64,000 nt of DNA, taken from contig OZ020304.1 in the NCBI GenBank assembly GCA_963971305.1, forward strand, positions 16,784,103 through 16,848,102, written 5' to 3'. Under the pieces are notes generated by a model that searched no databases, was not told the DNA's origin, and saw only the letters and a list, made by a program, of their open reading frames with translations. A program made the translations under genes and the position numbers. The stretch comes from Arcuatula senhousia (lineage: Eukaryota; Mollusca; Bivalvia; Mytilida; Mytilidae). Positions within the stretch are counted from its first letter, which is position 1. The number at the start of each line of letters is the position of its first letter. Shown here piece after piece: positions 501 through 56,611 of this stretch.

Positions 501-925
501 TGTATATAAATATACAAAGGGGTTTTTGATTTCTTTTAAATATTTATTTATTGTCCAGTCAAATGTATACGCTGTTTTGTGATTATAAGGTACTGACTAC
601 AATTTCAGATAACCTGAAATGCAGCTAAATATTGTTCAGTTTTTATCCCAGCTATGACGTAGGAGTGGAAATAAAGTTTTACCTGTGTGTCCAGTTCATT
701 CTCGCTTCTTCATAAGTTCATGTTGCTGATTGCGGTTTTGACGGTTGTATAATGTGTTTTTGTTTGTTGTATTGTCTAAATTAGTGATTAGTTTCGTCAC
801 TCGATCGTGGCTTTAGGAACATACAGATGAAACACTTTTGATTTTGATCAGTTCTGATACTTATGCAAATGCATACCAAATATTAATGGTGTACCATAAC
901 TTGTTAAACAAATTAGACCATCATC
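501..925. other. No recognisable feature
   Basis: AT-rich sequence with no long open frame, no RNA gene and no repeat that I can match elsewhere in the window. Confidence 0.6.
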
Positions 926-1258
926 GCCCACAGGCAAGGCTAGACGTCTAGTAAGTTCAACAAGAGACTCCCAGGAGCCTGAAACGCTCACCTGGTCTTG
1001 ATATCAACCATATGAAGACTTTTGTTAAGCTAAATGAGCTGAATGTTTAAGCAAGAAAAAGCTTTTCACTATCTGCAATAGTTTTCAGTCTAAATAAGCA
1101 AAAAAATACTATAATTCAACTTTTAAGGGGCTGTCACTCTATAAAGGCTTATCTGACAAAATCAACCCTAGGAAGACTTTTGTAGAGCTAAATGAGCTGA
1201 ACATTTAAGCAAGCAACAGGTTTTCTCTATCTGCAATAGTTTCATTCTGTAGGCCAAA
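926..1258 (-). repeat. Element C fragment (minus orientation)
   Basis: The reverse complement of this stretch corresponds to the 3' half of the element at 51545-52331. It has the GCTCACCTGG end, the hairpin AGGAGCCT region and two imperfect monomers of about 158 bp carrying AGCTAAATGAGCTGAA (near 1030 and 1188). It abuts the satellite that follows, and the satellite monomer itself contains a piece matching the terminus of element C. Confidence 0.65.
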
Positions 1259-1259
1259 A

Positions 1260-4200
1260 ACATGAAAACGAAAATATTTTTTTTATCTTAACTTTCATTG
1301 GTGACCATTTAGAACCATTGTGTACTAAAAACATGATAAACAATATTTGTTATTTTATATTTTAAGCTTAAGTGGTGACCATTTGCAACTATTATGTCCA
1401 TCAATGATAAAAAATCAAAGAAAAAATATTTTATTGCAAAACGGGGAGGTCTGTGCAAAAAAACGGAACATATTGTTATCAACCCGTTTTGCAATAAAGT
1501 AGTTAAATCATATTAATTTATATCTAAAAACAATATTTTTTTTATCTTAACTTTAATTGGTGACCATTTAGAACCATTGTGTAGTAAAAACATGATAAAC
1601 AAATAAAATATGAGCGATTCAGGCTCCTAGGAACCTCTTGTTTATGTTTAAAAACAGTATTTGTTATTTTAAGCTTAAGTGGTGACCATTTGCAACCATT
1701 ATGTCCATAAATGATAAAAAATCAAAGAAAAAATATTTTATTGCAAAACGGGTAGGTCTGTGCAAAAAACGGAACATATTGTTATCAACCCGTTTTGCAA
1801 TAAAGTAGTTAAATCATATTAATTTATATCTAAAAACAATAATTTTTTATCTTAACTTTCATTGGTGACCATTTAGAACCATTGTGTACTAAAAACATGA
1901 TAAACAAATAAAATATGAGCGATTCAGGCTCCTATGAGCCTCTTGGTTATGTTTAAAAACAATTTTTGTTATTTTAAGCTTAAGTGGTGACCATTTCCAA
2001 CCATTATGTCCATAAATGATAAAAAATCAAAGAAAAAATATTTAATTGCAAAACGGGGAGGTCTGTGGAAAAAACGGAACATATTTTATCAACTCGTTTT
2101 GCAATAAAGTAGTTAAATCATATTTATTTATATCTAAAAACAATATTTTTTTTATCTTATCTTTCATTGGTGACCATTTAGAACCATTGTGTACTAAAAA
2201 CATGATAAACAAATAAAATATGAGCGATTCAGGCTCCTAGGAACCTCTTGTTTATGTTTAAACAATATTTGTTATTTTAAGCTTAAGTGGTGACCATTTG
2301 CAACCATTATGTCCATCAATGATAAAAAATCAAAGAAAAAATATTTTATTGCAAAACGGGGAGGTCTGTGCCAAAAAACGGAACATATTGTTATCAACCC
2401 GTTTTGCAATAAAGAAGTTAAATCATATTAATTTATATCTAAAAACAATATTGTTTTATCTTAACTTTCATTGGTGACCATTTAGAACCATTGTGTACTA
2501 AAAACATGATAAACAAATAAAATATGGAGATTCAGGCTCCTAGGAACCTCTTGTTTATGTTTAAAAACAATATTTGTTATTTTAAGCTTAAGTGGTGACC
2601 ATATGCAACCATTATGTCCATCAATGATAAAAAATCAAAGAAAAAATATTTAATTGCAAAACGGGGAGGTCTGTGCAAAAAACGGAACATATTTTATCAA
2701 CCCGTTTTGCAATAAAGTAGTTAAATCATATTAATTTATATCTAAAAACAATATTTTTTTATCTTAACTTTCATTGGTGACCATTTAGAACCATTGTGTA
2801 CTAAAAACATGATAAACAAATAAAATATGAGCGATTCAGGCTCCTAGGAACCTCTTGTTAATGTTTAAAAACAATATTTGTTATTTTAAGCTTAAGTGGT
2901 GACCATTTGCAACCATAGGTCCATCAATGATAAAAAATCAAAGAAAAAATATTTTATTGCAAAACGGGGAGGTCTGTGCAAAAAAACGGAACATATTGTT
3001 ATCAACCCGTTTTGCAATAAAGTAGTTTAATCATATTAATTTATATCTAAAAACGATATTTTTTTATCTTAACTTTCATTGGTGACCATTTAGAACCATT
3101 GTGTACTAAAAACATGATAAACAAATAAAATATGAGCGATTCAGGCTCCTAGGAACCTCTTGTTTATGTTTAAAAACAATATTTGTTATTTTAAGCTTAA
3201 GTGGTGGCCATATGCAACCATTATGTCCATCAATGATAAAAAATCAAAGAAAAAATATTTTATTGCAAAACGGGGAGGTCTGTGCAAAAAACGGAACATA
3301 TTGTTATCAACCCGTTTTGCAATAAAGTAGTTAAATCATATTAATTTATATCTAAAAACAATATTTTTATCTTAACTTTCATTGGTGACCATTTAGAACC
3401 ATTGTGTAGTAAAAACATGATAAACAAATAAAATATGAGCGATTCAGGCTCCTAGGAACCTCTTGTTTATGTTTTAAAACAATATTTGTTATTTTAAGCT
3501 TAAGTGGTGACCATTTGCAACCATTATGTCCATCAATGATAAAAAATTAAAGAAAAAATATTTTATTGCAAAACGGGGAGGTCTGTGCAAAAAACGGAAC
3601 ATATTGTTATCAACCCGTTTTGCAATAAAGTAGTTAAATCATATTAATTTATATCTAAAAACAATATTTTTTTATCTTAACTTTCATTGGTGACCATTTA
3701 GAACCATTGTGTACTAAAAACATGATAAACAAATAAAATATGAGCGATTCAGGCTCCTAGGAACCTCTTGTTTATGTTTAAAAACAATATTTGTTATTTT
3801 AAGCTTAAGTGGTGGCCATATGCAACCATTATGTCCATCAATGATAAAAAATCAAAGAAAAAATATTTTATTGCAAAACGGGGAGGTCTGTGCAAAAAAC
3901 GGAACATATTGTTATCAACCCGTTTTGCAATAAAGTAGTTAAATCATATTAATTTATATCTAAAAACAATATTTTTTATCTTAACTTTCATTGGTGACCA
4001 TTTAGAACCATTGTGTAGTAAAAACATGATAAACAAATAAAATATGAGCGATTCAGGCTCCTAGGAACCTCTTGTTTATGTTTTAAAACAATATTTGTTA
4101 TTTTAAGCTTAAGTGGTGACCATTTGCAACCATTATGTCCATCAATGATAAAAAATCAAAGAAAAAATATTTTATTGCAAAACGGGGAGGTCTGTGCAAA

Positions 4201-6542
4201 AAACGGAACATATTGTTATCAACCCGTTTTGCAATAAAGTAGTTAAATCATATTAATTTATATCTAAAAACAATATTTTTTTATCTTAACTTTCATTGGT
4301 GACCATTTAGAACCATTGTGTAGAAAAAACATGATAAACAAATAAAATATGAGCGATTCAGGCTCCTAGGAACCTCTTGTTTATGTTTTAAAACAATATT
4401 TGTTATTTTAAGCTTAAGTGGTGACCATTTGCAACCATTATGTCCATCAATGATAAAAAATCTAAGAAAAAATATTTTATTGCAAAACGGGGAGGTCTGT
4501 GCCAAAAAACGGAACATATTGTTATCAACCCGTTTTGCAATAAAGAAGTTAAATCATATTAATTTATATCTAAAAACAATATTGTTTTATCTTAACTTTC
4601 ATTGGTGACCATTTAGAACCATTGTGTACTAAAAACATGATAAACAAATAAAATATGGAGATTCAGGCTCCTAGGAACCTCTTGTTTATGTTTAAAAACA
4701 ATATTTGTTATTTTAAGCTTAAGTGGTGACCATATGCAACCATTATGTCCATCAATGATAAAAAATCAAAGAAAAAATATTTAATTGCAAAACGGGGAGG
4801 TCTGTGCAAAAAACGGAACATATTTTATCAACCCGTTTTGCAATAAAGTAGTTAAATCATATTAATTTATATCTAAAAACAATATTTTTTTATCTTAACT
4901 TTCATTGGTGACCATTTAGAACCATTATGTACTAAAAACATGATAAACAAATAAAATATGAGCGATTCAGGCTCCTAGGAACCTCTTGTTAATGTTTAAA
5001 AACAATATTTGTTATTTTAAGCTTAAGTGGTGACCATTTGCAACCATAGGTCCATCAATGATAAAAAATCAAAGAAAAAATATTTTATTGCAAAACGGGG
5101 AGGTCTGTGCAAAAAAACGGAACATATTGTTATCAACCCATTTTGCAATAAAGTAGTTTAATCATATTAATTTATATCTAAAAACGATATTTTTTTATCT
5201 TAACTTTCATTGGTGACCATTTAGAACCATTGTGTACTAAAAACATGATAAACAAATAAAACATGAGCGATTCAGGCTCCTAGGAACCTCTTGTTTATGT
5301 TTAAAAACAATATTTGTTATTTTAAGCTTAAGTGGTGACCATATGCAACCATTATGTCCATCAATGATAAAAAATCAAAGAAAAAATATTTAATTGCAAA
5401 ACGGGGAGGTCTGTGCAAAAAACGGAACATATTTTATCAACCCGTTTTGCAATAAAGTAGTTAAATCATATTAATTTATATCTAAAAACAATATTTTTTT
5501 ATCTTAACTTTCATTGGTGACCATTTAGAACCATTGTGTACTAAAAACATGATAAACAAATAAAATATGAGCGATTCAGGCTCCTAGGAACCTCTTGTTA
5601 ATGTTTAAAAACAATATTTGTTATTTTAAGCTTAAGTGGTGACCATTTGCAACCATAGGTCCATCAATGATAAAAAATCAAAGAAAAAATATTTTATTGC
5701 AAAACGGGGAGGTCTGTGCAAAAAAACGGAACATATTGTTATCAACCCGTTTTGCAATAAAGTAGTTTAATCATATTAATTTATATCTAAAAACGATATT
5801 TTTTTATCTTAACTTTCATTGGTGACCATTTAGAACCATTGTGTACTAAAAACATGATAAACAAATAAAATATGAGCGATTCAGGCTCCTAGGAACCTCT
5901 TGTTTATGTTTAAAAACAATATGTTAAAAACAATATTTGTTATTTTAAGCTTAAGTGGTGACCATTTGCAACCATTATGTCCATCAATGATAAAAAATCA
6001 AAGAAAAAATATTTTATTGCAAAACGGGGAGGTCTGTGCAAAAAAACGGAACATATTGTTATCAACCCGTTTTGCAATAAAGTAGTTTAATCATATTAAT
6101 TTATATCTAAAAACGATATTTTTTTATCTTAACTTTCATTGGTGACCATTTAGAACCATTGTGTACTAAAAACATGATAAACAAATAAAATATGAGCGAT
6201 TCAGGCTCCTAGGAACCTCTTGTTTATGTTTAAAAACAATATTTGTTATTTTAAGCTTAAGTGGTGACCATTTGCAACCATTATGTCCATCAATGATAAA
6301 AAATCAAAGAAAAAATATTTTATTGCAAAACGGGGAGATCTGTGCAAAAAACGGAACATATTGTTATCAACCCGTTTTGCAATAAAGTAGTTAAATCATA
6401 TTAATTTATATCTAAAAACAATATTTTTTTTATCTAAAACTTCATCAATGATCATTTGGAACCATTGTGTACCTAAAACATGATAAAACAAAGAAAAAAA
6501 TATTTTATTGCAAAACGGGGAGTTTATTGCAAAACGGGTTGT
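1260..6542. repeat. Satellite array, about 17 monomers of about 304 bp
   Basis: The landmark GAGCGATTCAGGCTCC recurs at about 1612, 1918, 2222, 2527 (variant), 2829, 3134, 3437, 3742, 4045, 4351, 4658 (variant), 4960, 5264, 5569, 5874 and 6194, giving steps of 302-306 bp with one step of 320 bp. The long step is caused by a 16-bp internal duplication near 5910-5926. Each monomer contains two related half-units beginning GGTGACCATTT and a 16-bp inverted repeat. The first unit lacks the GAGCGATTCAGG module. The last unit, from about 6430, is decayed. Short open frames in the array are by-products. Nothing suggests a protein. Confidence 0.95.
1737..1804. other. Representative satellite stem-loop
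   Basis: TTTATTGCAAAACGGG at 1737-1752 is the exact reverse complement of CCCGTTTTGCAATAAA at 1789-1804, separated by 36 bases. The same pair recurs once per monomer through the array and is better conserved than much of the surrounding monomer. It could form a hairpin or cruciform, or be a remnant of terminal inverted repeats of an inserted element. Confidence 0.85.
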
Positions 6543-8904
6543 TACAAAGCTTCAATTACAAAGGCCAGACTAAAACGTATTGTGTTTCTTTTTAGTTCTC
6601 CTGATTTGGCTAAGTATTTGTCATACGAATATATTATCGTACGGTGAAATCAATTCTTTATTTTATTAGCTTCCTTAAAGTACTGTTTTCATGCACAAAA
6701 ACTGAATATTTCATTGAAAAATGTACACGAACTTTTTAAAGACTCGAAATTGATGAGATGTATATTGATTAGTTGTCCGAAGTAGTTACGTTTCAGACGA
6801 AAATAAAAAAAAAAAGAAATTATTTTCATTTACTCTCGAAAGAAATATTATACAGTTACACGGGAATCTAACAAAAGTAACCAGCTTGAAACGCAATATT
6901 TAAGGGATTACATGTGTAATCAAGTATTTTATAAAGAGTACGTAGATATGGGTTTTGTAAAGGGTTCAACCATTGAATTTCAATGGAAGGAGGTGTATGG
7001 TGAAATTTGAAATTAAAAATCAGAATGCAAAAAATCAGGAAATAGAAAGCCAGGACAATACTTTGAAATTAAAAAGGGCAAAATGCAGTTTTTGGCAACA
7101 AATAATATGCTAAATAAAAAAAAACACAAATGTGCTAGCGTCGTAAGAAATCCAGGCACGATTTTTAAAAATAAAAAGGAAGGATGAAAACATATCCATA
7201 GCCTCACCCATACAAATCAAATGTACATAAGATTCATTAAATATTTTTCATCCCAAATATAGTTGAGAAAAAAACAACTATTGAGTAGCAGATGCATCAT
7301 TTATGCCACATTTTATTTCTCAAGTCCTTGTCCAAACAGAAAAAAATAAAGGTGGTGCACACAGTGATGTTAATGACGTTAGTCCCCCCAAAAGTTAAAA
7401 AAAAGTTCCAAGAGTTGTCCCCCTTTTTGCGACGAATACTCGGAAAAATAAAATGCCTTAACCATATAAATTTGATAAAATATTTGGAGTTTTATTGTCT
7501 TATGTAGTCTGACATAATTATTTACAGTTATCCAAACCATTATATTTTATTAATATTACTCAATAGTTAGAATTAAACCCGAATAGAAGAATTTTCTATT
7601 GGAAATTAAGTCCCGCCCCTTTTACCTTATTTGGCAAATCAGACGAAATTTGATACCTTATTTCTTAAATCGGATTTAGCACCCCGAAGATCGACATCGA
7701 TTGTTTTAGAATTTCACCATATGATAGATCATAAAATATAGAATTTGAGAATTGCTGCTCATTCTTTTGTATTTTTGAAAATTATAACAAAAAAATGATA
7801 TCAAGATGAAAAACGCAGTTTTTCTCATTCTGATTTACACTTTTCGTCCAAAAATTAAAATTATTCTTCACATTATCAACAATGAGCACCTAAATCCAAA
7901 TAAATTGATCAAAAACGAACCCAAATAAATGATTTTTAATCAATTCGATGGTGCTTATCGGGGTGCTAAACTTCAGTTTCCAAATCCGAGAAAAGTCATG
8001 TTGCAGACAAAATGGTTGCCATGGATACTTATTTATGGTACTATATGAGCAGTATTTTAACGCATTACATATTTTCTAAATACATATCGAATTCCTGTTC
8101 ATTTCGATATAAAATAACTTTATAATTGATTTTAAATTTTTTATGTTTGAAAGGGTCGGGAAACGGACGATTTTCCGGAAAAGTGCATTAACCAAACTGC
8201 GCATTTTTTATCCTCAGTGATAACGTCCGTTGCCTTGAAAAAAGCATTGCAAATAACACAAGTTAAACCAATTTATGTCTTTAACAATCAGGAAGATTGG
8301 AAGAAGAATTGCATTACCTAATGTTTGAATTTGAAAAAAAATCACATCTCTCTATAAAGTTAATGGAGTATCAAATTATTTCTCTATAATTTTTGAAAAG
8401 TCATTCACATTCGTAACACAATAACATTATTTGTAAATCTGTCAAAAGTGCCAATGAATCTTTAATTAATTTTGACAACTAGTAATTTTTTTACGGATTT
8501 CAACAAAATAGTTTAATAAAAATATGATTTCGATGGAGGAAAACAACTTAAAGTATTTTCAATTATTTAATTTTATTTCCTAGTACGATAAGTCCGTTTT
8601 GTTAAAAACTTGAAACATCGATTTCGAGTACAAAAATGTGATTGAATTCCAAGAGGAGATAGAAGAAGTTGATTATTAAGCAATTATTTTTTATTTGTTC
8701 TTGTTTATTCGGTCGACAAAGTGTACATAATAATAAGGTCAGAAACTGACTCGAGGAAAAAAACGTTCCGGAAAAGAGAAGGAAGAAATTTTAAGAACAA
8801 CATTCTGGTGTTTTTAGGTACACAAAAATATATTCTACCAGATAGTATAGTAGCATGTCCGACATTTCTATCCTCCATGTATGTAGACAAGAGGACATTC
8901 AATT
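6543..8904. other. AT-rich stretch with one inverted-repeat pair
   Basis: No coding region is recognised. The only structure I see is a pair of inverted arms of about 30 bp at about 7672-7702 and 7943-7972, sharing TTTAGCACCCCG and CATCGA, which would enclose about 240 bp. Short open frames here are AT-rich and lack any domain signature. Confidence 0.5.
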
Positions 8905-8933
8905 ATGGAACGCCAGGACTGCCTTATGTTGGT

Positions 8934-9850
8934 AACCATCATTATACTCAGGCGTAACGCCATTATGCTCAGTCGTTACAACTTAATACTCAGTCGTTAC
9001 AACTTTATATTCAGTCCTTACTACATTATATTCAGTCGTTACCACATTATACTCAGTGGTTAGAATATTATACTCAGTTGTAATAACATTATATTCAGTT
9101 GTTATAACATTATGTTCAGTCGTTATAACATTATGTTCAGTCGTGTCAACATTATACTCAGTCGTGTCAACATTATGTTAAGTCGTTTCAACATTATACT
9201 CAGTCCTTAAAACTTTATACGCTTTCATTACATTATTATATTCAGTCATTACAGCATCATACTATGCAGTCTTAACATTATAATCAGTCCTTTCTTTAGT
9301 TTACTCTGTTGTTCAATATTATACACTGTCGTTACAGCATTATATTCAGTAGTTATCACATTATACTCAGGCGTTACACCATTATTACTCAGCTATTACA
9401 CCATTATACGCAGGCGTTACACCATTATACTCGGGCCTTACAACTTTATACTCTGTCGTTTTATCATTTTACGCTGTTGAGACAACATTATACTATGTCG
9501 TTACCACATTATAGTCAGGCGTTACAACATTATGCATCGTGGTGACAACGTTATACTATGTGGTTACAACTTTATACTCAGTCGTTGGATCATATACGCT
9601 GTCTATTCAACATTATAATCTGGGGTTACAACAATATACTCTGTGGTTGCATAATAATACGCTGTCTTTTCATCATTATACTCTGTGATTACACCATTAT
9701 ACTATGCTGTCACAACATTATAGTAAGTTTGTGCAACATTATACTCAGTACTTACAACATTATACTATGTGATTACAACTTTATACTATGTGGGTACATC
9801 ATTATACTATGTGGTTACAACATTATACGCTGTCGTTACAACATTAGGTG
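8934..9850 (+). repeat. 21-bp minisatellite, left arm
   Basis: About 43 imperfect copies of a 21-bp unit of the form CGTTACAACATTATACTCAGT. Because 21 is a multiple of three, open frames persist through the array and give heptapeptide-repeat translations such as HYTQALQ (9309-9545) and IILCGYN (9558-9869). These are not considered real proteins. The array sits at the outer end of the palindrome arm. Confidence 0.95.
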
Positions 9851-9952
9851 CTCTTTTAAGTGGTTGTAACTCGGGGGAAATCGGAAATAAACGACAATTG
9901 CCGAACTCGGATTTTTTTGTAAGATTAAATTTCACACTCACCGCCTAACAAA

Positions 9953-10249
9953 ATGGCAAGTATGGTCAGGCGGTTCTGTTTAATATGGATATATCTCGCC
10001 GAGCTTTTTCTTGAACAAAAAAATGATATAAAAATCGCCAAGCAATTATCAGACGACGAACTTGCCGTAAAAATCGCCATGCAATTATCAGACGACGAAC
10101 TTGCCGTTCTTGGTGTCGTTACAATAGGGGACGGGATCTGTTTAAGGGAATCGCTGCGAAGTCACAAGCGGGACCACAAGACACGTGCACCATCCGGACA
10201 GATGAAGAAGAACCATCTACGAGTAGTGATATTGTATCTGATCTATTGA
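9953..10249 (+). CDS. Small SAM-domain-like ORF, left arm
   Basis: A 98-codon ORF. Residues of about 11-70 resemble a sterile alpha motif (SAM) domain: an aromatic/leucine helix (IWIYLAELFLEQ), then QLSDDELAVLGVVTIGD and a basic LRESLRSHKRD end, the usual helix 2 to helix 5 pattern of SAM domains, which mediate protein-protein contacts. The block KIAKQLSDDELAV is duplicated in tandem (residues 27-39 and 40-52), so this copy has a lengthened, possibly non-functional domain. After about residue 82 another frame reads an acidic, serine-rich tail, DEEEPSTSSDIVSDLL, and stops at 10257, suggesting an old frameshift near 10200. I chose the ATG at 9953 because it is the first in frame. It lies between the minisatellite and non-coding repeat DNA. 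SAM homology is by eye only. Confidence 0.4.
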   Translation: MASMVRRFCLIWIYLAELFLEQKNDIKIAKQLSDDELAVKIAMQLSDDELAVLGVVTIGDGICLRESLRSHKRDHKTRAPSGQMKKNHLRVVILYLIY

Positions 10250-10259
10250 TAAATTAATT

Positions 10260-12000
10260 TCAATCAACCTACAGGGTGGTAACCTTTTAATAATAAAAGC
10301 GTTTTCTCTATTTAGTTTTTGTAAATCTATTTGTTTTATATCCAATTGTCTTTTGCTACAGCAACAGCTAGACCAATGATTCATTACATGTGCGGAAGAT
10401 AGCTAAGTTATAGTCTTTGTTATTTACTTAACTTGAGTTTGAATCAAATTATAAGATGTAAAACAACTTTATAAATCTGTGAGCTTATGCACACTAGTGA
10501 AACACCGCTTCCAAAATTAGGGGTTGTGTAAATACCTAAGTATTCGGTGAACAGGAAGTAGACGATATAGGAACATCGATTGCTAATACGCTATATGGTA
10601 CTATAGGATAAAGCAATATGTAAATATCAGGCCTTTGCATCATGTATAACAGTCTTGTAGTTGCTTAGAAAACTTCGACGGAAATTTTGCATATATGTCC
10701 AATGTTTGTAAAACCCTTAGTATCCGGTAGACATGAAGTATATGAAATGGGAGAATAAAATTACTATACGCCATAAGGTACTATACTTTTAAGATAAAGC
10801 TATATTTATATACAAAATATCAGGCCTCTATGTCATGTAGTCGTTTAGAAAACTTTTTTGAAGCGGGGATATAAAAAAACTTACAATTTAAAAAGACAGA
10901 AATGTTGATAAAAATAACTTAAAATATCGGGCTTTGGTGTACATGTTTTTACAGTAGCACCATTCAAGTTACCGAAATTCTTTCTACATGCCAGGGAGAG
11001 ACCTAGATATTGTTATTTTCTTTCAGATTTCCGTTTTATATGCACAAATACGGCTACATACCGACTTTCATAAATTTCATTGTAGTTTTTAATGAGATAA
11101 GAGCGGAAACCTATGATTAGGAAGGGTAATGAAAAGTCTTAAGATCAATGGACAATAAATCCCACCAAAAATTGAGGATAGAGATTTCCTGTTAATTTTG
11201 CCCAACTTCATATTTTTGGTGTCCTTGCTACATATCAACTTTCTTTAAGAAGCTGAACGGAATAAGTGTGACGGACAGACGACAGGACAAACAGACAGGC
11301 GGACGGATAGAATAAAAATATGTCTTCAAACAAAGAGGGGGGATAAGTATAACAAAATAAAATAAAAAACTTGACTGGAATAATAGGCGCTTGATATACT
11401 AAGAAATGCTATATCTGTTAAGAGTAAAAATGTGTTCAAGGATTGTTTCCTATCTACGTCTTATGTGTTTAAGTTTAAGGAGTACAAAATCTTGGTACAG
11501 GGATTTAGCATAAAGTACAGCTAATAATAGCTTTTTCGTATACTAGTTCAAGAAAATTCTTCTGACAATATTGGTGAAGCAGAAGACTCACAATTCGAAG
11601 GATTACCTTTAGCGAAAATGTACTACTATGTTGTCTCGAATGAATAACTGTAGGTTATATATAACACAATGGGACGAAAAAAGCGAAGGCGAAAAAGTTT
11701 TGTCAAACTTGCAAAAAATGCAACCAATATTGAGGTTAAACAGATGCATATGACCTTGTATAAACCTTCTTCTCAATCTAAAACTAACTTAACCCTGTAA
11801 GTGGGCATATTTATAAAGAGCAGATGGACGAACGAACGAACCTAAACATCAATTTACTTTATTCACCTCTACTTTTGTAAGCAGCGCAAAAGTAGCAAGC
11901 AACTTCCTCCTACCAACAGGAATAGGACCTTTCTCTATTGTATGGTTATTTAGATTTCTGTATTTGTTTTTGTTATTTTTTGGGTCGCTTTTCATTTTCC
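10260..12000. other. Left-arm interior, no gene recognised
   Basis: AT-rich DNA mirrored in the right arm. It includes a purine-rich GACGGACAGACG-type tract at about 11270-11312, a motif that recurs in mussel dispersed repeats. The left arm lacks about 79 bp found in the right arm at about 17483-17561. A minus-strand frame at 11849-12067 is mirrored at 15696-15914 and has no recognisable domain. Confidence 0.6.
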
Positions 12001-12004
12001 CCGT

Positions 12005-12470
12005 CGAAACGCGGAGCGGGCATATCAAAATATGTCGGGCGTCATTCCGTCCGTTTGTCCGTCGCACTTTTGCCCGTAACAGATTTCTCAGCTACTAGTA
12101 ATCCAAGGCTTTCAATATTTGGTATGCAGCTTCAGGTAGGGGTCAAAAAAGAAAAAAAAATCGTTACCGAGTTCCATGCTTTTATTATTCGTACGCTTTC
12201 CATATTTGGTATGCAGCTTTAGGGAGGGGTCCCATGTGGTGAGATGCGTTTCCAGGTCTGCAGCTTACCTTCTTCCTGTTTAACGAGCTGACTTCGCATT
12301 TAAAGGGTCATAATGGAAAAACTTTTCGTTCAACATTTCTCAGCTATTACTATTCTTAGGCTTTCGATATTTGGTATGGAGCTTTAGATAGGGGTCACAC
12401 ATGGTGGGAAGCATTTCCAGGTCTATCGCTTGCCACCTCCTGTTTAACGAACGGACTTAAGGTTTTTGCC
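12005..12470. repeat. Dispersed-repeat segment with internal duplication, left arm
   Basis: Two related sub-blocks start TTTCTCAGCTA (near 12083 and 12336) and continue TTTGGTATG.AGCTT.AG.TAGGGGTC. Both end in the CAGGTCT..CTTCCTGTTTAACGA type of sequence. It follows a GTCCGTTTGTCCGTC tract. The mirrored copy is at about 15300-15765. Open frames crossing it (for example 11938-12222) are not thought to be genes. Confidence 0.6.
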
Positions 12471-13535
12471 ACACGGCGGGGGGGGGGCAGGAATTTCGTT
12501 CTTGTTGGTTTTGTTTTTGTTTGTTTGTTTTTTTTCGAGGGGGGATATGTTAATCCCGGGTTTTTGTTCTACCATTGTTGCATTGTTGATGCACAACCAC
12601 TATCCGACCCGAAACTATCTTATGTTTTCATTCGTGTATTTGCTAGTCGCTATTTTGATTCTTTATCATGTTTTGGGACAAGCAGGGAAATCAGTGTACC
12701 ATGGACACATTCCCTTTTTATTGGAGATAACGTTCGAATTCAATAAAAGTCATATCAAAATACACTAGATCACATTAAAACATATTGCACACTCAAAAAG
12801 TAGACCCTTTAGGCCGCACCTATGTACCTATCCCCCCCCCCCGGGCCGAGAAAAATTAATTATCAAATATCTCAACTCACAGTACCAGGATCGTAGAATG
12901 TTTACCGAGTTACTGCTTGCTTCGCAAGTGGAAAGCTTAGCTTTGTTTGTATATTAGCGTGTGGTTAGTTTTATCTAAGATCTTTCAATTTAGTTTTTAA
13001 ATTGACTCCTTTTCATGGTAGGTCCCGTGTCCGGCGACAGGATTGTTTTTTCGAGAGTCATTGTGCAATTTTTTTCGAGAGAGGTCCAGGTTTTTTTCGC
13101 CTGTCCGTTTACAAAAAATACTTAAATTCTCAATTGTAAGTGAAACAAAACAAAAAAATGAAATAAAAGTATTCAAAATGTTCGAATTGTTACTTTTCTT
13201 CCAAAAAAGTCCGTAAAGAAGCAACAGTTAATGATTTATTAAAATTGATCAGGTTTTTTCGAGAGGCACAATAACTTGTCCGGTTTTTTCGAGAGGTGTC
13301 CTGGTTGTTTTTTTGAAAATTTTGACTAAAGAGAGGCACTTGGTTTTGTGAAAACTATACGACTTAAATGGAAACTAATATCCCTCCTACTCAATAAACA
13401 TACATTTAAACACATTACATGCAAAATATCAAGTTCGTTACTAACTTTAAAGCATAAGTAGGCTGCCCAAATACATTATCTTTGAAAACTACCGGGGTAA
13501 ATTAGTATTTTGACAAAATTAGTTTTATAGTACAT
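12471..13535. other. Left-arm inner end with homopolymers and weak ORFs
   Basis: Contains G and C runs (about 12477-12487 and 12831-12842) and two overlapping open frames (12466-12768 and 12525-12746). Both are mirrored in the right arm, which carries an in-frame 9-bp tandem duplication. Hydrophobic stretches are present but no family is recognised. The arm ends at about 13535 with TTTTATAGTACAT. Confidence 0.5.
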
Positions 13536-14218
13536 AAGAGTATGAGATTAAAATGCTATTGAAGTTTCGGTATCTTTACATACATATGTGAGGGGGGGTA
13601 GGAGGGGGTCTGATCCCGGAATCCCGAACTAATTTTTACAAAATCCCGCCATCCCGACTTAAAAATGAGAAAATCCCGAAGCCCGGTAAAGTTGATATAA
13701 TTCTATCCCGGAATCCCGAACTTAAATTGTCCAAATCCCGGAATCCCGAGCTTAAATATGGCCAATCCCGGTGTCCCGAAAAAGGTCCTACCCCTCCCTC
13801 ATATGTATACGTTAAGGGGTTCCAATATCTCATATTCCCTAATGTTTTTATCAAAAATCCCGTATCCAAAATAGAGGGTTTTTGTCTTATCCCATATCCC
13901 TGTAAATAGAATAGATTTAAATATTCTATATCCCAGTTTGTTTTGCCTCAAATATCCCGTATCCCAGGAATAAATATGTAAATATCCCATATTCCAAAAC
14001 ACCCTTAAACTCTTGAAATAACAGAATGCACCAGTGGAATGTGCTCTTTTAGTATTTATTTGTTTCTGACATACATGTAGATTTTATAGTTTCAAAGACT
14101 TGAAAAGGCACAAAAACAAGATTGCAACTTACCTTTCAAAATTTTGACCACCGTAACAATCACTCTTTTTGAAACCGGTAATTTACCAAAGCACCTCAAG
14201 AAAGTCACAAATGTACAA
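13536..14218. other. Central loop of the palindrome
   Basis: 683 bp with no inverted counterpart. The part from 13605 to 13795 is built of degenerate units of the type AATCCCGGAATCCCGAAC. The part from 13830 to 14000 repeats ATATCCC/GTATCCC motifs. The remainder is AT-rich. Short frames at 13636-13869 and 13799-14002 arise from the repeat. Confidence 0.8.
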
Positions 14219-17200
14219 ATGTACTATAAAACTAATTTTGTCAAAATACTGATTTACCCCGGTAGTTTTCAAAGATAATGTATTTGGGCAGCCTACTTAT
14301 GCTTTAAAGTTAGTAACAAACTTGATATTTTGCATGTAATGTGTTTAAATGTATGTTTATTGAGTAGGAGGGATATTAGTTTCCATTTAAGTCGTATAGT
14401 TTTCACAAAACCAAGTGCCTCTCTTTAGTCAAAATTTTCAAAAAAACAACCAGGGCACCTCTCGAAAAAACCGGACAAGTTATTGTGCCTCTCGAAAAAA
14501 CCTGATCAATTTTAATAAATCATTAACTGTTGCTTCTTTACGGACTTTTTTGGAAGAAAAGTAACAATTCGAACATTTTGAATACTTTATTTCATTTTTT
14601 TGTTTTGTTTCACTTACAATTGAGAATTTAAGTATTTTTTTGTAAACGGACAGGCGAAAAAAACCTGGACCTCTCTCGAAAAAAATTGCACAATGACTCT
14701 CGAAAAAACAATCCTGTCGCCGGACACGGGACCTACCATGAAAAGGAGTCAATTTAAAAACTAAATTGAAAGATCTTAGATAAAACTAACCACACGCTAA
14801 TATACAAACAAAGCTAAGCTTTCCACTTGCGAAGCAAGCAGTAACTTTCGGTAAACATTCTACGATCCTGGTACTGTGAGTTGAGATATTTGATAATTAA
14901 TTTTTCTCGGCCCGGGGGGGGGGGATAGCTACATAGGTGCGGCCTAAAGGGTCTACTTTTTGAGTGTGCAATATGTTTTAATGTGATCTAGTGTATTTTG
15001 ATATGACTTTTATTGAATTCGAACGTTATCTCCAATAAAAAGGGAATGTGTCCATGGTACACTGATTTCCCTGCTTGTCCCAAAACATGATAAAGAATCA
15101 AAATAGCGACTAGCAAATACACGAATGAAAACATAAGAAAGTTTCGGGTCGGATAGTGGTTGTGCATCAACAATGCAACAATGGTAGAACTGGTAGAACA
15201 AAAACCCGGGATTAACATATCCCCCCTCGAAAAAAAAAACAAACAAACAAAAACAAAACCAACAAGAACGAAATTCCTGCCCCCGCCGTGTGGCAAAAAC
15301 TTTAAGTCCGTTCGTTAAACAGGAGGTGACAAGCGATAGACCTGGAAATGCTTCCCACCATGTGTGACCCCTATCTAAAGCTCCATACCAAATATCGAAA
15401 GCCTAAGAATAGTAATAGCTGAGAAATGTTGAACGAAAAGTTTTTCCATTATGACCCTTTAAATGCGAAGTCAGCTCGTTAAACAGGAAGAAGGTAAGCT
15501 GCAGACCTGGAAACGCATCTCACCACATGGGACCCCTACCTAAAGCTGCATACCAAATATGGAAAGCGTACGAATAATAAAAGCATGGAACTCGGTTACG
15601 ATTTTTTTTTTCTTTTTTGACCCCTACCTGAAGCTGCATACCAAATATTGAAAGCCTTGGATTACTAGTAGCTGAGAAATCTGTTACGGGCAAAAGTGCG
15701 ACGGACAAACGGACGGATGGACGCCCGACATATTTTGATATGCCCGCTCCGCGTTTCGACGGGGAAAATGAAAAGCGACCCAAAAAATAACAAAAACAAA
15801 TACAGAAATCTAAATAACCATACAATAGAGAAAGGTCCTATTCCTGTTGGTAGGAGGAAGTTGCTTGCTACTTTTGCGCTGCTTACAAAAGTAGAGGTGA
15901 ATAAAGTAAATTGATGTTTAGGTTCGTTCGTTCGTCCATCTGCTCTTTATAAATATGCCCACTTACAGGGTTAAGTTAGTTTTAGATTGAGAAGAAGGTT
16001 TATACAAGGTCATATGCATCTGTTTAACCTCAATATTGGTTGCATTTTTTGCAAGTTTGACAAAACTTTTTCGCCTTCGCTTTTTTCGTCCCATTGTGTT
16101 ATATATAACCTACAGTTATTCATTCGAGACAACATAGTAGTACATTTTCGCTAAAGGTAATCCTTCGAATTGTGAGTCTTCTGCTTCACCAATATTGTCA
16201 GAAGAATTTTCTTGAACTAGTATACGAAAAAGCTATTATTAGCTGTACTTTATGCTAAATCCCTGTACCAAGATTTTGTACTCCTTAAACTTAAACACAT
16301 AAGACGTAGATAGGAAACAATCCTTGAACACATTTTTACTCTTAACAGATATAGCATTTCTTAGTATATCAAGCGCCTATTATTCCAGTCAAGTTTTTTT
16401 ATTTTATTTTGTTATACTTATCCCCCCTCTTTGTTTGAAGACATATTTTTATTCTATCCGTCCGCCTGTCTGTTTGTCCTGTCGTCTGTCCGTCACACTT
16501 ATTCCGTTCAGCTTCTTAAAGAAAGTTGATATGTAGCAAGGACACCAAAAATATGAAGTTGGGCAAAATTAACAGGAAATCTCTATCCTCAATTTTTGGT
16601 GGGATTTATTGTCCATTGATCTTAAGACTTTTCATTACCCTTCCTAATCATAGGTTTCCGCTCTTATCTCATTAAAAACTACAATGAAATTTATGAAAGT
16701 CGGTATGTAGCCGTATTTGTGCATATAAAACGGAAATCTGAAAGAAAATAACAATATCTAGGTCTCTCCCTGGCATGTAGAAAGAATTTCGGTAACTTGA
16801 ATGGTGCTACTGTAAAAACATGTACACCAAAGCCCGATATTTTAAGTTATTTTTATCAACATTTCTGTCTTTTTAAATTGTAAGTTTTTTTATATCCCCG
16901 CTTCAAAAAAGTTTTCTAAACGACTACATGACATAGAGGCCTGATATTTTGTATATAAATATAGCTTTATCTTAAAAGTATAGTACCTTATGGCGTATAG
17001 TAATTTTATTCTCCCATTTCATATACTTCATGTCTACCGGATACTAAGGGTTTTACAAATATTGGACATATATGCAAAATTTCCGTCGAAGTTTTCTAAG
17101 CAACTACAAGACTGTTATACATGATGCAAAGGCCTGATATTTACATATTGCTTTATCCTATAGTACCATATAGCGTATTAGCAATCGATGTTCCTATATC

Positions 17201-17592
17201 GTCTACTTCTTGTTCACCGAATACTTAGGTATTTACACAACCCCTAATTTTGGAAGCGGGGTTTCACTAGTGTGCATAAGCTCACAGATTTATAAAGTTG
17301 TTTTACATCTTATAATTTGATTCAAACTCAAGTTATGTAAATAACAAAGACTATAACTTAGCTATCTTCCGTACATGTAATGAATCATTGGTCTAGCTGT
17401 TGCTGTAGCAAAAGACAATTGGATATAAAACAAATAGATTTACAAAAACTAAATAGAGAAAACGCTTTTATTATTAAAAGGTTAAAAAGATGTACTTTAA
17501 CACATCGCATCTGTTCTGTGTTCATGATACAAAAATGAAAATACGAGTTTGAAATGTTTTTACCACCCTGTAGGTTGATTGAAATTAATTTA
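14219..17592. other. Right-arm interior, mirror of 10260-13535
   Basis: Reverse complement of the left-arm interior with scattered substitutions and small indels. Examples are AACTTTCGG against AACTCGG near 14845, a 9-bp tandem duplication near 15186, and an extra segment of about 79 bp at about 17483-17561 beside the CACCCTGTAGG landmark. The dispersed-repeat block is at 15300-15765. No gene is recognised. Confidence 0.7.
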
Positions 17593-17889
17593 TCAATAGA
17601 TCAGATACAATATCACTACTCGTAGATGGTTCTTCTTCATCTGTCCGGGTGGTGCACGTGTCTTGTGGTCCCGCTTGTGACTTCGCAGCGATTCCCTTAA
17701 ACAGATCCCGTCCCCTATTGTAACGACACCAAGAACGGCAAGTTCGTCGTCTGATAATTGCTTGGCGATTTTTACGGCAAGTTCGTCGTCTGATAATTGC
17801 TTGGCGATTTTTATATCATTTTTTTGTTCAAGAAAAAGCTCGGCGAGATATATCCATATTAAACAGAACCGCCTGACCATACTTGCCAT
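17593..17889 (-). CDS. Small SAM-domain-like ORF, right arm
   Basis: The mirror copy of the ORF at 9953-10249, also 98 codons. It keeps the tandem 13-residue duplication and the same alternative-frame acidic tail, so those changes predate the inverted duplication. It differs from the left copy at residue 43 (K instead of M) and residue 81 (P instead of S), with no premature stop in either. Residues 40-70 carry the DDELAVLGVVTIGD segment typical of SAM-like domains. It lies just inside the minisatellite. Whether it is transcribed cannot be told. It may be a captured exon or the remnant of a protein of the element. Confidence 0.4.
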   Translation of the reverse strand: MASMVRRFCLIWIYLAELFLEQKNDIKIAKQLSDDELAVKIAKQLSDDELAVLGVVTIGDGICLRESLRSHKRDHKTRAPPGQMKKNHLRVVILYLIY

Positions 17890-17999
17890 TTTGTTAGGCG
17901 GTGAGTGTGAAATTTAATCTTACAAAAAAATCCGAGTTCGGCAATAGTCGTTTATTTCCGATTTCCCCCGAGTTACAACCACTTAAAAGAGCACCTAAT

Positions 18000-18940
18000 G
18001 TTGTAACGACAGCGTATAATAGTATAATGATGTACCCACATAGTATAAAGTTGTAATCACATAGTATAATGTTGTAAGTACTGAGTATAATGTTGCACAA
18101 ACTTAGTATAATGTTGTGACAGCATAGTATAATGGTGTAATCACAGAGTATAATAATGAAAAGACAGCGTATTATTATGCAACCACAGAGTATAATGTTG
18201 TAACCCCAGATTATAATGTTGAATAGACAGCGTATAATGATCCAACGACTGAGTATAAAGTTGTAACCACATAGTATAACGTTGTCACCACGATGCATAA
18301 TGTTGTAACGCCTGACTATAATGTGGTAACGACATAGTATAATGTTGTCTCAGCAGCGTAAAATGATAAAACGACAGAGTATAAAGTTGTAAGGCCCGAG
18401 TATAATGGTGTAACGCCTGCGTATAATGGTGTAATAGCTGAGTAATAATGGTGTAACGCCTGAGTATAATGTGATAACTACTGAATATAATGCTGTAACG
18501 ACAGTGTATAATATTGAACAACAGAGTAAACTAAAGAAAGGACTGATTATAATGTTAAGACTGCATAGTATGATGCTGTAATGACTGAATATAATAATGT
18601 AATGAAAGCGTATAAAGTTTTAAGGACTGAGTATAATGTTGAAACGACTTAACATAATGTTGACACGACTGAGTATAATGTTGACACGACTGAACATAAT
18701 GTTATAACGACTGAACATAATGTAATAACGACTGAGCATAATGTTATAACGACTGAACATAATGTTATAACGACTGAACATAATGTTATTACAACTGAGT
18801 ATAATATTCTAACCACTGAGTATAATGTGGTAACGACTGAATATAATGTAGTAAGGACTGAATATAAAGTTGTAACGACTGAGTATAAAGTTGTAACGAC
18901 TGAGCATAATGGCGTTACGCCTGAGTATAATGATGGTTAC
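18000..18940 (-). repeat. 21-bp minisatellite, right arm
   Basis: Mirror of the left-arm minisatellite. Between comparable landmark units the right arm has five units where the left has three (about 18680-18790), and elsewhere lacks about 12 bp. Open frames 17894-18298 and 18285-18521 on the minus strand are repeat translations. Confidence 0.93.
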
Positions 18941-18974
18941 CAACATAAGGCAGTCCTGGCGTTCCATATTCAAT

Positions 18975-45839: not shown

Positions 45840-46112
45840 ATGATAAAACTGTTAATTATCCGTCTAAATTTCAAAATTGTCTAAACCCTAAGGTTCTTCC
45901 TACCCCAGACATAGGTTGAATATCTTAGTAATAATTTGGTTCCCCAGTTTGGTAGTTTTGGTTATACTGTTCTATGCTCTTCATATTCATACAGTGTTTG
46001 GCATTTTCAATATTTTTGGTAGAGCGCCTCTGATGAGTCTTGAATAGACGAAACGCGCGTCAGGCGTAGCAAAATTTATTGTCTGGAACTTTGTTGTCAT
46101 TTGTATTTCAAA
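45840..46112 (+). repeat. Hammerhead-bearing repeat H1, copy 2
   Basis: Reverse complement of 38250-38530 with a few differences. It contains the intact ribozyme core listed separately. The minus-strand frame 45987-46199 contains FATPDARFVYSRLIRGALPK, which is merely the translation of the repeat. Confidence 0.9.
46024..46067 (+). ncRNA. Type I hammerhead self-cleaving ribozyme, intact core
   Basis: Reading plus strand: stem I 5' strand GCGCCT (46024-46029); CTGATGA (46030-46036); stem II GTCT/AGAC with 5-base loop (46037-46049); GAAA (46050-46053); short stem III of A-T and C-G closing GCGC (46053-46060); cleavage-site C (46061) of GTC; stem I 3' strand AGGCGT (46062-46067). Stem I pairs six of six, with one G-T wobble. 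All invariant positions are present: C3, U4, G5, A6, G8, A9, G12, A13, A14, the A15.1-U16.1 pair, H17 = C, and a G10.1-C11.1 pair. The expected cut is between 46061 and 46062. Very short stem III hammerheads of this kind are known from Schistosoma satellites, Penelope-like elements and metazoan retrozymes. Activity in this copy is inferred, not shown. Confidence 0.85.
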
Positions 46113-51224: not shown

Positions 51225-52569
51225 TATGTTAGAGGCAATAGGTATAATTAGGCATTAAGCTTAAATCCTAGGCAATAAGATAATACCTAGTCATTAGTGT
51301 TAATGCCTAAATAGAATTTGGCATTAAGCTTAATGCCTAGGATTTAGGTCTAATGCCTGATTTTTTTCCATGAAAATTATTCTTATTGCCTAACCAGATA
51401 ATCTGATACATAATGAAAAGAAAATTTGAAATTAAAGGTTCAATATCAGTAAGTTTAGCTGAAATCATATTTCTTTGGATACTAGTAGGTAGCCCAATTT
51501 CAAACAAAATCAAATATTATCTATTTCTAATATTTTTTGTATTTAAGCTCACCTGGCCAAAGGCCATGTGAGCTTATGCCATCACTGTGTTCGTCATTGT
51601 CCGTCGTCGTTAACAATTTCAGAAATCTTCTCCTCTGAAACCACTGAACCAATGGAACTGAAACTTTGCATATTGGCAAGACAATAAAAAAACATAGCAA
51701 AAAGGTATCATAATGTTTTTTCATGTTCTTGGCTTATAGAAAGAAAACTACAGCAGATACAGAAAAGCTGTTGCTTACTTAAATGTTCAGCTTAATTAGC
51801 TCTACAAAAGTCTCCATAGGGTCGAAGTTGTCAGTTGACCCTTTATAGGGGTTACGGCCCCTAAAATAAGTTTATTTTTTATTTTTTGGCCTATGGAATG
51901 AAAACTGTAGCAGGTAGAGAGAAACTGTTGCTTGCTTAAATGTTCAGCTCATTTAGCTCTACAAAAGTCTTCATATGGTCGAAGTTGTCAGATGACCCCT
52001 TATAGGGGTCAGGGCCCCTTAAAGGCGAAATATATTGATTTTGGCTTTTAGAATGAAAGCTATTGCAGATAGAAAAAGCTGTTGCTTGCTTAAACATTCA
52101 GCTCATTTAGCTCTACAAAAGTTTACATTAGGTCTAAGTTATCAGATGAACCCATATAAGCGTTATAGCTCCTAAAATAATATTTAAACATGTTTTGGAC
52201 CAACAGAATGAAAGCTATAGTAGATAGAGAAAAGCTTGCATTAATGTTCAGCTTATTTAGCTCTACAAAAGTCTTTACAGAGTTGACATCAAGACCAGGT
52301 GAGCGATTCAGGCTCCTGAGAGCCTCTTGTTTCAGTTAAACTTATTAATATTGAAACTTTAATTTCAAATTTTCTTTTCATGATGTATCAGATTATCTGG
52401 TTAGGCAATAAGAATAATTTTCATTGAAAAAAATCAGGCATTAGACCTAAATCCTAGGCATTAAGCTTAATGCCAAATTCTATTGAGGCATTTACGCTAA
52501 TGACTAGGTATTATCTTATTGTCTAGGATTTAAGCTTAATGCCTAATTATACCTATTGCCTCTAACATA
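51225..52569. mobile_element. Foldback element with terminal inverted repeats of about 240 bp
   Basis: Left arm 51225-51463 and right arm 52331-52569 are inverted copies. The outer end reads TATGTTAGAGGCAATAGG. The arms hold sub-palindromes such as GGCATTAAGCTTAATGCC and repeated TAATGCCTA motifs. TA lies outside each end, compatible with a TA target. The interior holds a short unique part and element C, so it is either a composite or has been hit by a second insertion. Confidence 0.85.
51545..52331 (+). repeat. Element C, near-complete copy with four internal monomers of about 155 bp
   Basis: It begins AAGCTCACCTGGCCAAAGG, a near-perfect hairpin with AGCTCAC/GTGAGCT arms. It ends with GTGAGCGATTCAGGCTCCTG followed by the hairpin AGGCTC..GAGCCT and CTTGTTT. 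In between, a block with TTCAGCT.A.TTAGCTCTAC recurs at about 51786, 51942, 52097 and 52247. Part of this family is inverted at 926-1258, and its end matches the module inside every full satellite monomer of 1260-6542. Non-coding. Confidence 0.75.
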
Positions 52570-55466: not shown

Positions 55467-55553
55467 ACAATTATAATATTAAATACGAAAGAATATGGAA
55501 TATGTGCCAGAAAGACACGATCCACATATTGAAATAATTTTGATAAATTCACT

Positions 55554-55595
55554 GCGTGTGAAGCGCTTTTCTGGATTAACCTTCATCAGACACGC
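55554..55595 (-). ncRNA. Hammerhead-like motif, unit 1 of H2
   Basis: Minus strand: stem I GCGTGT with ACACGC (six of six); CTGATGA at plus 55583-55589; GAAA at plus 55568-55571; stem III two A-T pairs closing GCGC; cleavage-site C (plus 55560). The stem II region (plus 55572-55582) has A opposite A at positions 10.1/11.1 and only two G-C pairs, which departs from the usual G-C closing pair. Activity is doubtful. Confidence 0.55.
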
Positions 55596-55937
55596 TAGGA
55601 GTAAAAAAACTTGGAAAACCGGTTGTATATCATATTTGATAAAACAAAAACAGAAGCCAAAAAATATTACAACAATGACCAAACAGATAAATTTATCAAT
55701 TCTTAAAGAAATAGCCAAACGTTGTCAACTTTTGGAAATATGCAAACTGTGTCTTTCAAACACATATTCCAGTACTCGAAAATATATATGAGCATACAAC
55801 TGAAGCACGGGGAAGCTTTCTACGACCTCCACACGGCACTAAAGCCAAACTCTGAAATAATATTAAATACGAGAGAATATGGAATATGTGCCAGAAAGAC
55901 ACGATCCACATATTGAAATGATTTTGATAAATTCACT

Positions 55938-55979
55938 GTGTGTGAAGCGCTATTCTGGATTAACCTTCATCAGACACAC
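55938..55979 (-). ncRNA. Hammerhead-like motif, unit 2 of H2 (core mutated)
   Basis: Same layout as unit 1. Stem I is GTGTGT with ACACAC, so the second pair changed on both strands and pairing is kept. The GAAA motif reads GAAT (plus 55952 is A), which removes the A15.1-U16.1 pair. Probably inactive. Confidence 0.5.
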
Positions 55980-56321
55980 TAGGAGTAAAAAAACTTGGAA
56001 AACCGGTTGTATGTTATATTTGATAAAACAAAAACAGAAGCCAAAAAATATTACAACAATGACCAAACAGATAAATTTATCAATTCTTAAAGAAATAGCT
56101 AAACGTTGTCAACTTTTGGAAATATGTAAATTGTGTCTTTCCAACACAGATTCCAGTACTCGAAAATATATATGAGCATACAACTGAAGCACGGGGAAGC
56201 TTTCAACGACCTCCACATGGCACTTAAGCCAAACTCTGAAATAATATTAAATACGAAAGAATATGGAATATGTGCCAGAAAGACACGATCCACATATTGA
56301 AATGATTTTGATAAATTCACT

Positions 56322-56363
56322 GCGTGTGAAGCGCTTTTCTTGATTAACCTTCATCAGACACGC
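56322..56363 (-). ncRNA. Hammerhead-like motif, unit 3 of H2
   Basis: Stem I GCGTGT with ACACGC as in unit 1, CTGATGA and GAAA present. Stem II is weakened further by a C to A change (TTAATCAA). Core strand elements are otherwise kept. Confidence 0.5.
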
Positions 56364-56611
56364 TAGGAGTAAAAAACTTGGAAAACCGGTTGTATATTAT
56401 ATTTGATAAAACAAAAACAGAAGCCAAAAAATATTACAACAATGACCAAACAGATAAATTTATCAATTCTTAAAGAAATAGCCAAACGTTGTCAACTTTT
56501 GGAAATATGTAAACTGTGTCTTTCCAACACATATTCCAGTACTCGAAAATATATAAGAGCATACAACTGAAGCACGGGGAAGCTTTCAACGACCTCCACA
56601 CGGCACTAAAA

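Follow-up and report, generated by a model that had tools for sequence, protein, structure and literature searches.

DNA transposons assigned to IS3EU/GingerRoot have TA..TA ends and usually give rise to target-site duplications of 6 bp (PMC10045372), and a set of fungal IS3EU elements is reported with the ends TAYGG..CCRTA (PMC12730594). Terminal inverted repeats (TIRs) of several kilobases are known from Galileo, a Drosophila element of the P superfamily with duplications of 7-8 bp. Its copy 112 in Drosophila willistoni measures 9,021 bp with TIRs of 4,246 and 4,680 bp, and shows identical duplications, tandem repeats, and other elements inside its TIRs (PMC4168063). In Drosophila mojavensis, Galileo TIRs were extended in that interior sequence beside one TIR was recruited, inverted, to the other, the recruited pieces being 121 and 441 bp long (PMC3573991). 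The present work concerns a locus of the mussel Arcuatula senhousia in a stretch of 64,000 nucleotides, hereafter called the window (C2:16784103-16848102 of the 1.04-Gb genome searched). It harbors a palindromic element of 10,065 bp (window 8904-18968), which is quite probably a copy of a non-autonomous IS3EU/GingerRoot-like TIR transposon whose right half was replaced via template switching in repair.

The arms of the palindrome (4.6-4.75 kb) lie in inverted order around a loop of 683 bp. Their alignment shows 26 substitutions in 4,613 columns (0.56%) and 12 insertions or deletions, the largest of 78, 42, and 13 bp; the 78 bp are missing from the left arm alone, where the gap is flanked by two TAA triplets. 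Near each end of the element, about 43 diverged 21-bp units in tandem cover ~0.9 kb. The ends read TATGGAACGCC..GGCGTTCCATA, with the left junction ...ACATTCAAT/TATGGAACG and the right junction CGTTCCATA/TTCAATGACG. With as many as 3 mismatches allowed, the window contains the terminal motif ATGGAACGCCAGGACTG two times, vs 0.08 expected from shuffles. Re-measurement confirmed the palindrome, its coordinates, the loop length, and the identical termini described by an earlier annotation made from the letters alone (the sequence-only reading). The flanking direct repeat, given there as the 7-bp ATTCAAT, had been over-read by one base: the target duplication is TTCAAT (6 bp), the additional A being a chance base on the left and the last base of the element on the right, and the other copies examined have 6 bp as well.

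A genome search for further copies with these ends, put forward by the same reading, returned 260 matches to the terminal 20-mer at up to 2 mismatches (124 forward, 136 reverse; 100 of them with listed places) and none to the reversed pattern used as a control; 260 ends imply about 130 elements. A 521-bp terminal probe gave 95 matches from the best 40 of 186 candidates. Target duplications were read in two sets of loci, 28 end pairs altogether. The first comprises the window and eight further loci seen as inverted pairs with the 521-bp probe; both ends are present in eight of these nine, the copy C124 running off its contig, and seven of the eight complete copies have an exact 6-bp duplication, with C9 matching at 5/6 bases. 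The second consists of the next 20 plus/minus neighbour ends, taken in the order of the terminal-20-mer list, and is exact in 19/20, with C4:42674877 at 5/6. Exact duplications of 6 bp thus border 26/28 pairs, as compared with 0/380 matches among mispaired ends of the second set, and matches of 7 to 12 bases were absent from the 20 pairs of that set, which fixes the duplication at 6 bp and the ends at TATGGAACGCC..GGCGTTCCATA. All 28 pairs carry TATGG..CCATA, a count that holds by selection since the pairs were chosen by that terminal sequence; that these are the precise limits of the element follows from the duplications and from empty sites. The latter are related to the C9 copy, which lies within repeated DNA: apart from its own flanks, the joined flanks have three further matches that cross the junction, one of which (C9:342339) reaches just 25 bases beyond it. 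All three read ACCAAAATGACAAC with a single CAAAAT, which suggests that the left duplicate of C9 changed after insertion, leaving the match at 5/6.

In the relatives read, the usual TIR is about 1.2-1.5 kb long and includes the 21-bp array, and the left and right interiors differ. Inverted arms within copies measure 1,481 bp at 98.6% identity in C10, 1,470 bp at 98.0% in C2c (C2:21229394-21241935), 1,351 bp at 94.3% in C11, 1,353 bp at 92.9% in C2b, 1,180 bp in C3, 1,193 bp in C5, and 1,261-1,462 bp in L081-L083; TIRs are shorter or split in C9, L084, and the 866-bp copy L080. The 28 pairs range in size from 866 bp to ~40 kb. The short copies L081 and L082 have a core of ~6.5-6.9 kb, C10 contains retroelement open reading frames (ORFs), and C2c carries an extra ~5.8 kb (its positions 4727-10531) bounded by short inverted repeats, i.e. 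a nested repeat, parts of which occur separately elsewhere. In a tree of 18 TIRs, both window TIRs pair together, with the TIRs of C10 and C2c as neighbours. The pairing is crosswise between C11 and C2b, the pattern that a single lineage in opposite orientations should give, and C124_R forms a long, unsure branch.

Compared with these relatives, the window copy has two left halves in head-to-head arrangement and no right half. Starting at the right end and going inward, its sequence tracks C2c 501-5699 along the arm and then the loop, where ~210 bp are extra; beyond the loop it turns into the reverse of C2c 5228-501, the left arm being collinear with C2c 501-5228. ACAT is present in both partners at the turn, as a microhomology located inside the nested repeat. 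A 600-bp probe laid over the turn crosses it in the window alone among the best 40 of 1,532 candidates; at the 39 other places the second piece is inverted at a short distance in 34, as in C2c, and not shown in five. An interior probe (window 10800-11300; best 40 of 559 candidates) hits the window twice, once in each orientation, and none of the 38 other places has an inverted partner nearby. When 13 complete copies were compared with themselves after masking of TIR-like sequence (L080 is TIR throughout), the only extended inverted pair of high identity was that of the window (3,269 bp at 98.8%). Elsewhere such pairs reach at most 744 bp in C5, 664 bp in C3, and 362 bp in C2b, at 73-80%, and 119 bp at 71% in L084; in the other eight copies no pair of at least 100 bp was found. 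The nearest relative found (C10:30540364) differs from the arms by 1.34-1.53% and continues like C2c past the switch point. As the arms are only 0.56% apart, the inverted duplication is probably younger than the split from that relative. The giant arms thus look like a one-off in this copy, produced by an inversion that is recent relative to the family and unique as far as seen, and the 4.6-kb arms, which are not the usual terminal repeats of the family, are explained by a rearrangement of the window copy. The coordinates are compiled in Table 1.

Table 1. Parts of the palindromic element and its borders (feature, window positions, strand).
Left target-site duplication TTCAAT	8898..8903	+	
Left arm, terminus TATGGAACGCC through switch point	8904..13535	+	
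Part of left arm corresponding to the TIR shared by the family, 78 bp missing at inner edge	8904..10280	+	
Array of left TIR, ~43 diverged 21-bp repeats	8940..9846	+	
Nested high-copy repeat fragments with a terminus like CACGGTAGGTC, in both arms and loop, borders approximate	13014..14740	.	
Switch point, 4-bp microhomology ACAT	13532..13535	.	
Loop, continuation of right arm into nested repeat, collinear with C2c except for the extra ~210 bp	13536..14218	.	
Right arm, collinear with loop and with left half of C2c	14219..18968	-	
Array of right TIR, ~43 21-bp repeats	18021..18932	-	
Right target-site duplication TTCAAT	18969..18974	+	

Within the arms, no substitution is present at window 10704-12044 (1,340 bp; p ~0.003 under random placement, tested post hoc), and conversion between the arms is possible for this stretch. 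The substitutions are unequally distributed, 16 on the left arm vs 6 on the right with two outgroups (p 0.05) and 17 vs 8 with the nearest relative as outgroup, a difference that is not firm. Both TIRs contain an ORF of 106 amino acids (9929-10249 and 17593-17913) with a duplicated unit of 13 amino acids around QLSDDELAV, which by eye may include a SAM-domain-like piece; the left copy had no Pfam match, and none of the eight candidates scored was a homologue.

The proposed rearrangement would begin with excision or a break of the element, followed by repair from the sister copy. Because the TIRs are near-identical inverted repeats of more than 1 kb, a broken end in the right TIR could anneal to the left TIR as a template and so duplicate the left half. 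Synthesis from the two ends would have extended unequally far, and the products would then be joined at the 4-bp microhomology ACAT, with the loop representing the further reach of the longer tract. Such template-switch repair accounts for the exact stop at the element ends, the kept duplication, the microhomology, and the loop, and template switching in post-excision repair is one origin given for defective Galileo copies (PMC4168063). Movement of the family as such would be provided in trans by a DDE (rve-type) transposase encoded elsewhere. We infer this mechanism as a whole from the anatomy of the element.

A less probable but serious alternative is foldback priming, in which the 3' end of a broken or excised element folds back at ATGT/ACAT and primes a copy in hairpin form, with a left end at each terminus, which is subsequently transposed to TTCAAT. 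This process is expected to yield a palindrome with a short loop and a 4-bp microhomology, as seen, and an intact target duplication fits an element both ends of which derive from one original end; the restriction of the junction to the window, with no sign of a mobile palindrome among the places scored with the turn probe, speaks mildly against it. A broader proposal appears rather improbable, namely that a foldback-type lineage exists within IS3EU whose long TIRs provoke template switching and repeatedly breed giant palindromes that have two competent ends and are still mobile. It was rated slightly lower still because no second palindrome was encountered among the 12 other copies.

As for the superfamily, the ends and the duplication length of the window family fit an IS3EU-like family that is non-autonomous as far as seen: TATGG..CCATA matches TAYGG..CCRTA, and 6-bp duplications are common to both. 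It differs from the described IS3EU/GingerRoot elements in its TIRs, which are given as >30 bp there and are 1.2-1.5 kb long with 21-bp arrays here, and in that no transposase was seen in the copies read. Several points weigh against the preferred reading, i.e. repair by template switching in an IS3EU/GingerRoot-like element. A tblastn search with 78 rve-type relatives revealed no rve-type transposase in 18 sequences (the nine first loci, five later copies, and four interior stretches of 3.3 kb), the sole match coming from a retroelement nested within C10. Of the 24 ORFs with 150 or more amino acids in the first nine loci, 19 were compared with Pfam, two of these ORFs over part of their length, and led to retroelement domains, TatD DNase, weak matches, or nothing, the remaining five being translations of the 21-bp array. 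The best IS481-like rve genes of the genome sit in a repeat of which one boundary is visible, and it is unlike TATGG. With regard to the mechanism, repair in situ and the hairpin route predict identical sequence, and conversion between the arms could make the duplication seem younger than it is.

The IS481-like genes (L085-L087, L091, L092; best E value 4.6e-36, below the cut-off of the family) include a group of three on C5, spaced within 0.2 Mb, and a C8 gene at 97%. In their repeat, one side holds a tandem array (units of ~20-51 bp) and the other short CAAATCTATGGC repeats. For the transposase gene, the best relative comes from Mytilus edulis, a protein with 75% identity over 75% of the query; Mytilus also supplies many of the further named matches, in keeping with a mussel host. 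As the autonomous partner of the window family, these C5 and C8 genes were set aside, the boundary being near TGTAGGACTC in the single comparison made (L091 with L092).

An origin as a giant Galileo/P-type foldback element is very unlikely. Long TIRs with tandem repeats would agree with it, and Galileo offers precedents for interior recruitment and for a 9-kb copy; the duplications, however, are of 6 bp in 26/28 pairs instead of 7-8 bp, and the element ends match IS3EU. The likeness to Galileo drawn by the sequence-only reading has given way to IS3EU/GingerRoot, to which the ends point. Its notion of a foldback-like architecture stands in so far as long TIRs (~1.2-1.5 kb) with subterminal 21-bp arrays are present, a type of build and not a phylogenetic family. 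Arms of such length, which it described as far longer than usual, have a precedent in Galileo copy 112, comparable in size and build (PMC4168063); the giant-palindrome architecture is already known from Drosophila willistoni and not new. As in Drosophila mojavensis, interior sequence was recruited in inverted form, ~3.3 kb in the window copy vs the far smaller pieces there (PMC3573991).

Kinship to Polinton/Maverick elements is comparably unlikely. The long TIRs would fit, and 6-bp duplications are also characteristic of Polintons (PMC10045372); against this, the 19 longer ORFs mentioned above gave no polymerase, ATPase, or capsid match. These ORFs came from the same nine loci as the first set of duplications. 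The usual Polinton terminus is AG. An assembly artefact, by a false join or a hairpin-read chimera, is the least credible explanation: near-palindromes are a frequent assembly fault, but the flanks differ, an exact 6-bp duplication lies at the element's own termini, the arms differ by 26 substitutions and 12 insertions or deletions, and relatives with the same ends form a family. The initial view of a transposon insertion with target duplication was upheld by further copies and related empty sites.

Fifteen of the 40 scored interior-probe places are strongly clustered in C12:0.53-3.19 Mb (2.7 Mb near one contig end) at 85-88% identity. Three family ends in one orientation (C10:4038959, 4063077, and 4087288) have spacings of 24.1 and 24.2 kb, a pattern resembling a tandem segmental duplication. 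The exact terminus 19-mer had two matches in bacteria, taken as chance, among bacterial and archaeal genomes, and none in viral contigs. In the literature searched on mussel or bivalve transposons, foldback elements, and IS3EU, no title describing such a mussel family was found. Elsewhere in the window, a satellite-like array (1351-6497; 16.8 copies of a 305-bp unit, 96% matches) lies 2.4 kb left of the element, short tandem arrays occupy 55473-56610 (384-bp unit, 3.0 copies) and 51717-52275 (157-bp unit, 3.6 copies), and a type I hammerhead ribozyme is predicted at 46024-46067 on the plus strand (36.5 bits vs a gathering score of 34).

Taken with its ordinary relatives, this single locus would provide a view of a TIR transposon turning into a giant foldback element by inverted duplication of one half at a microhomology. 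The locus also suggests that, besides Galileo, an IS3EU-like family has evolved TIRs of foldback type. For the mussel genome, a sizeable family of DNA transposons with clean ends is now usable in annotation.

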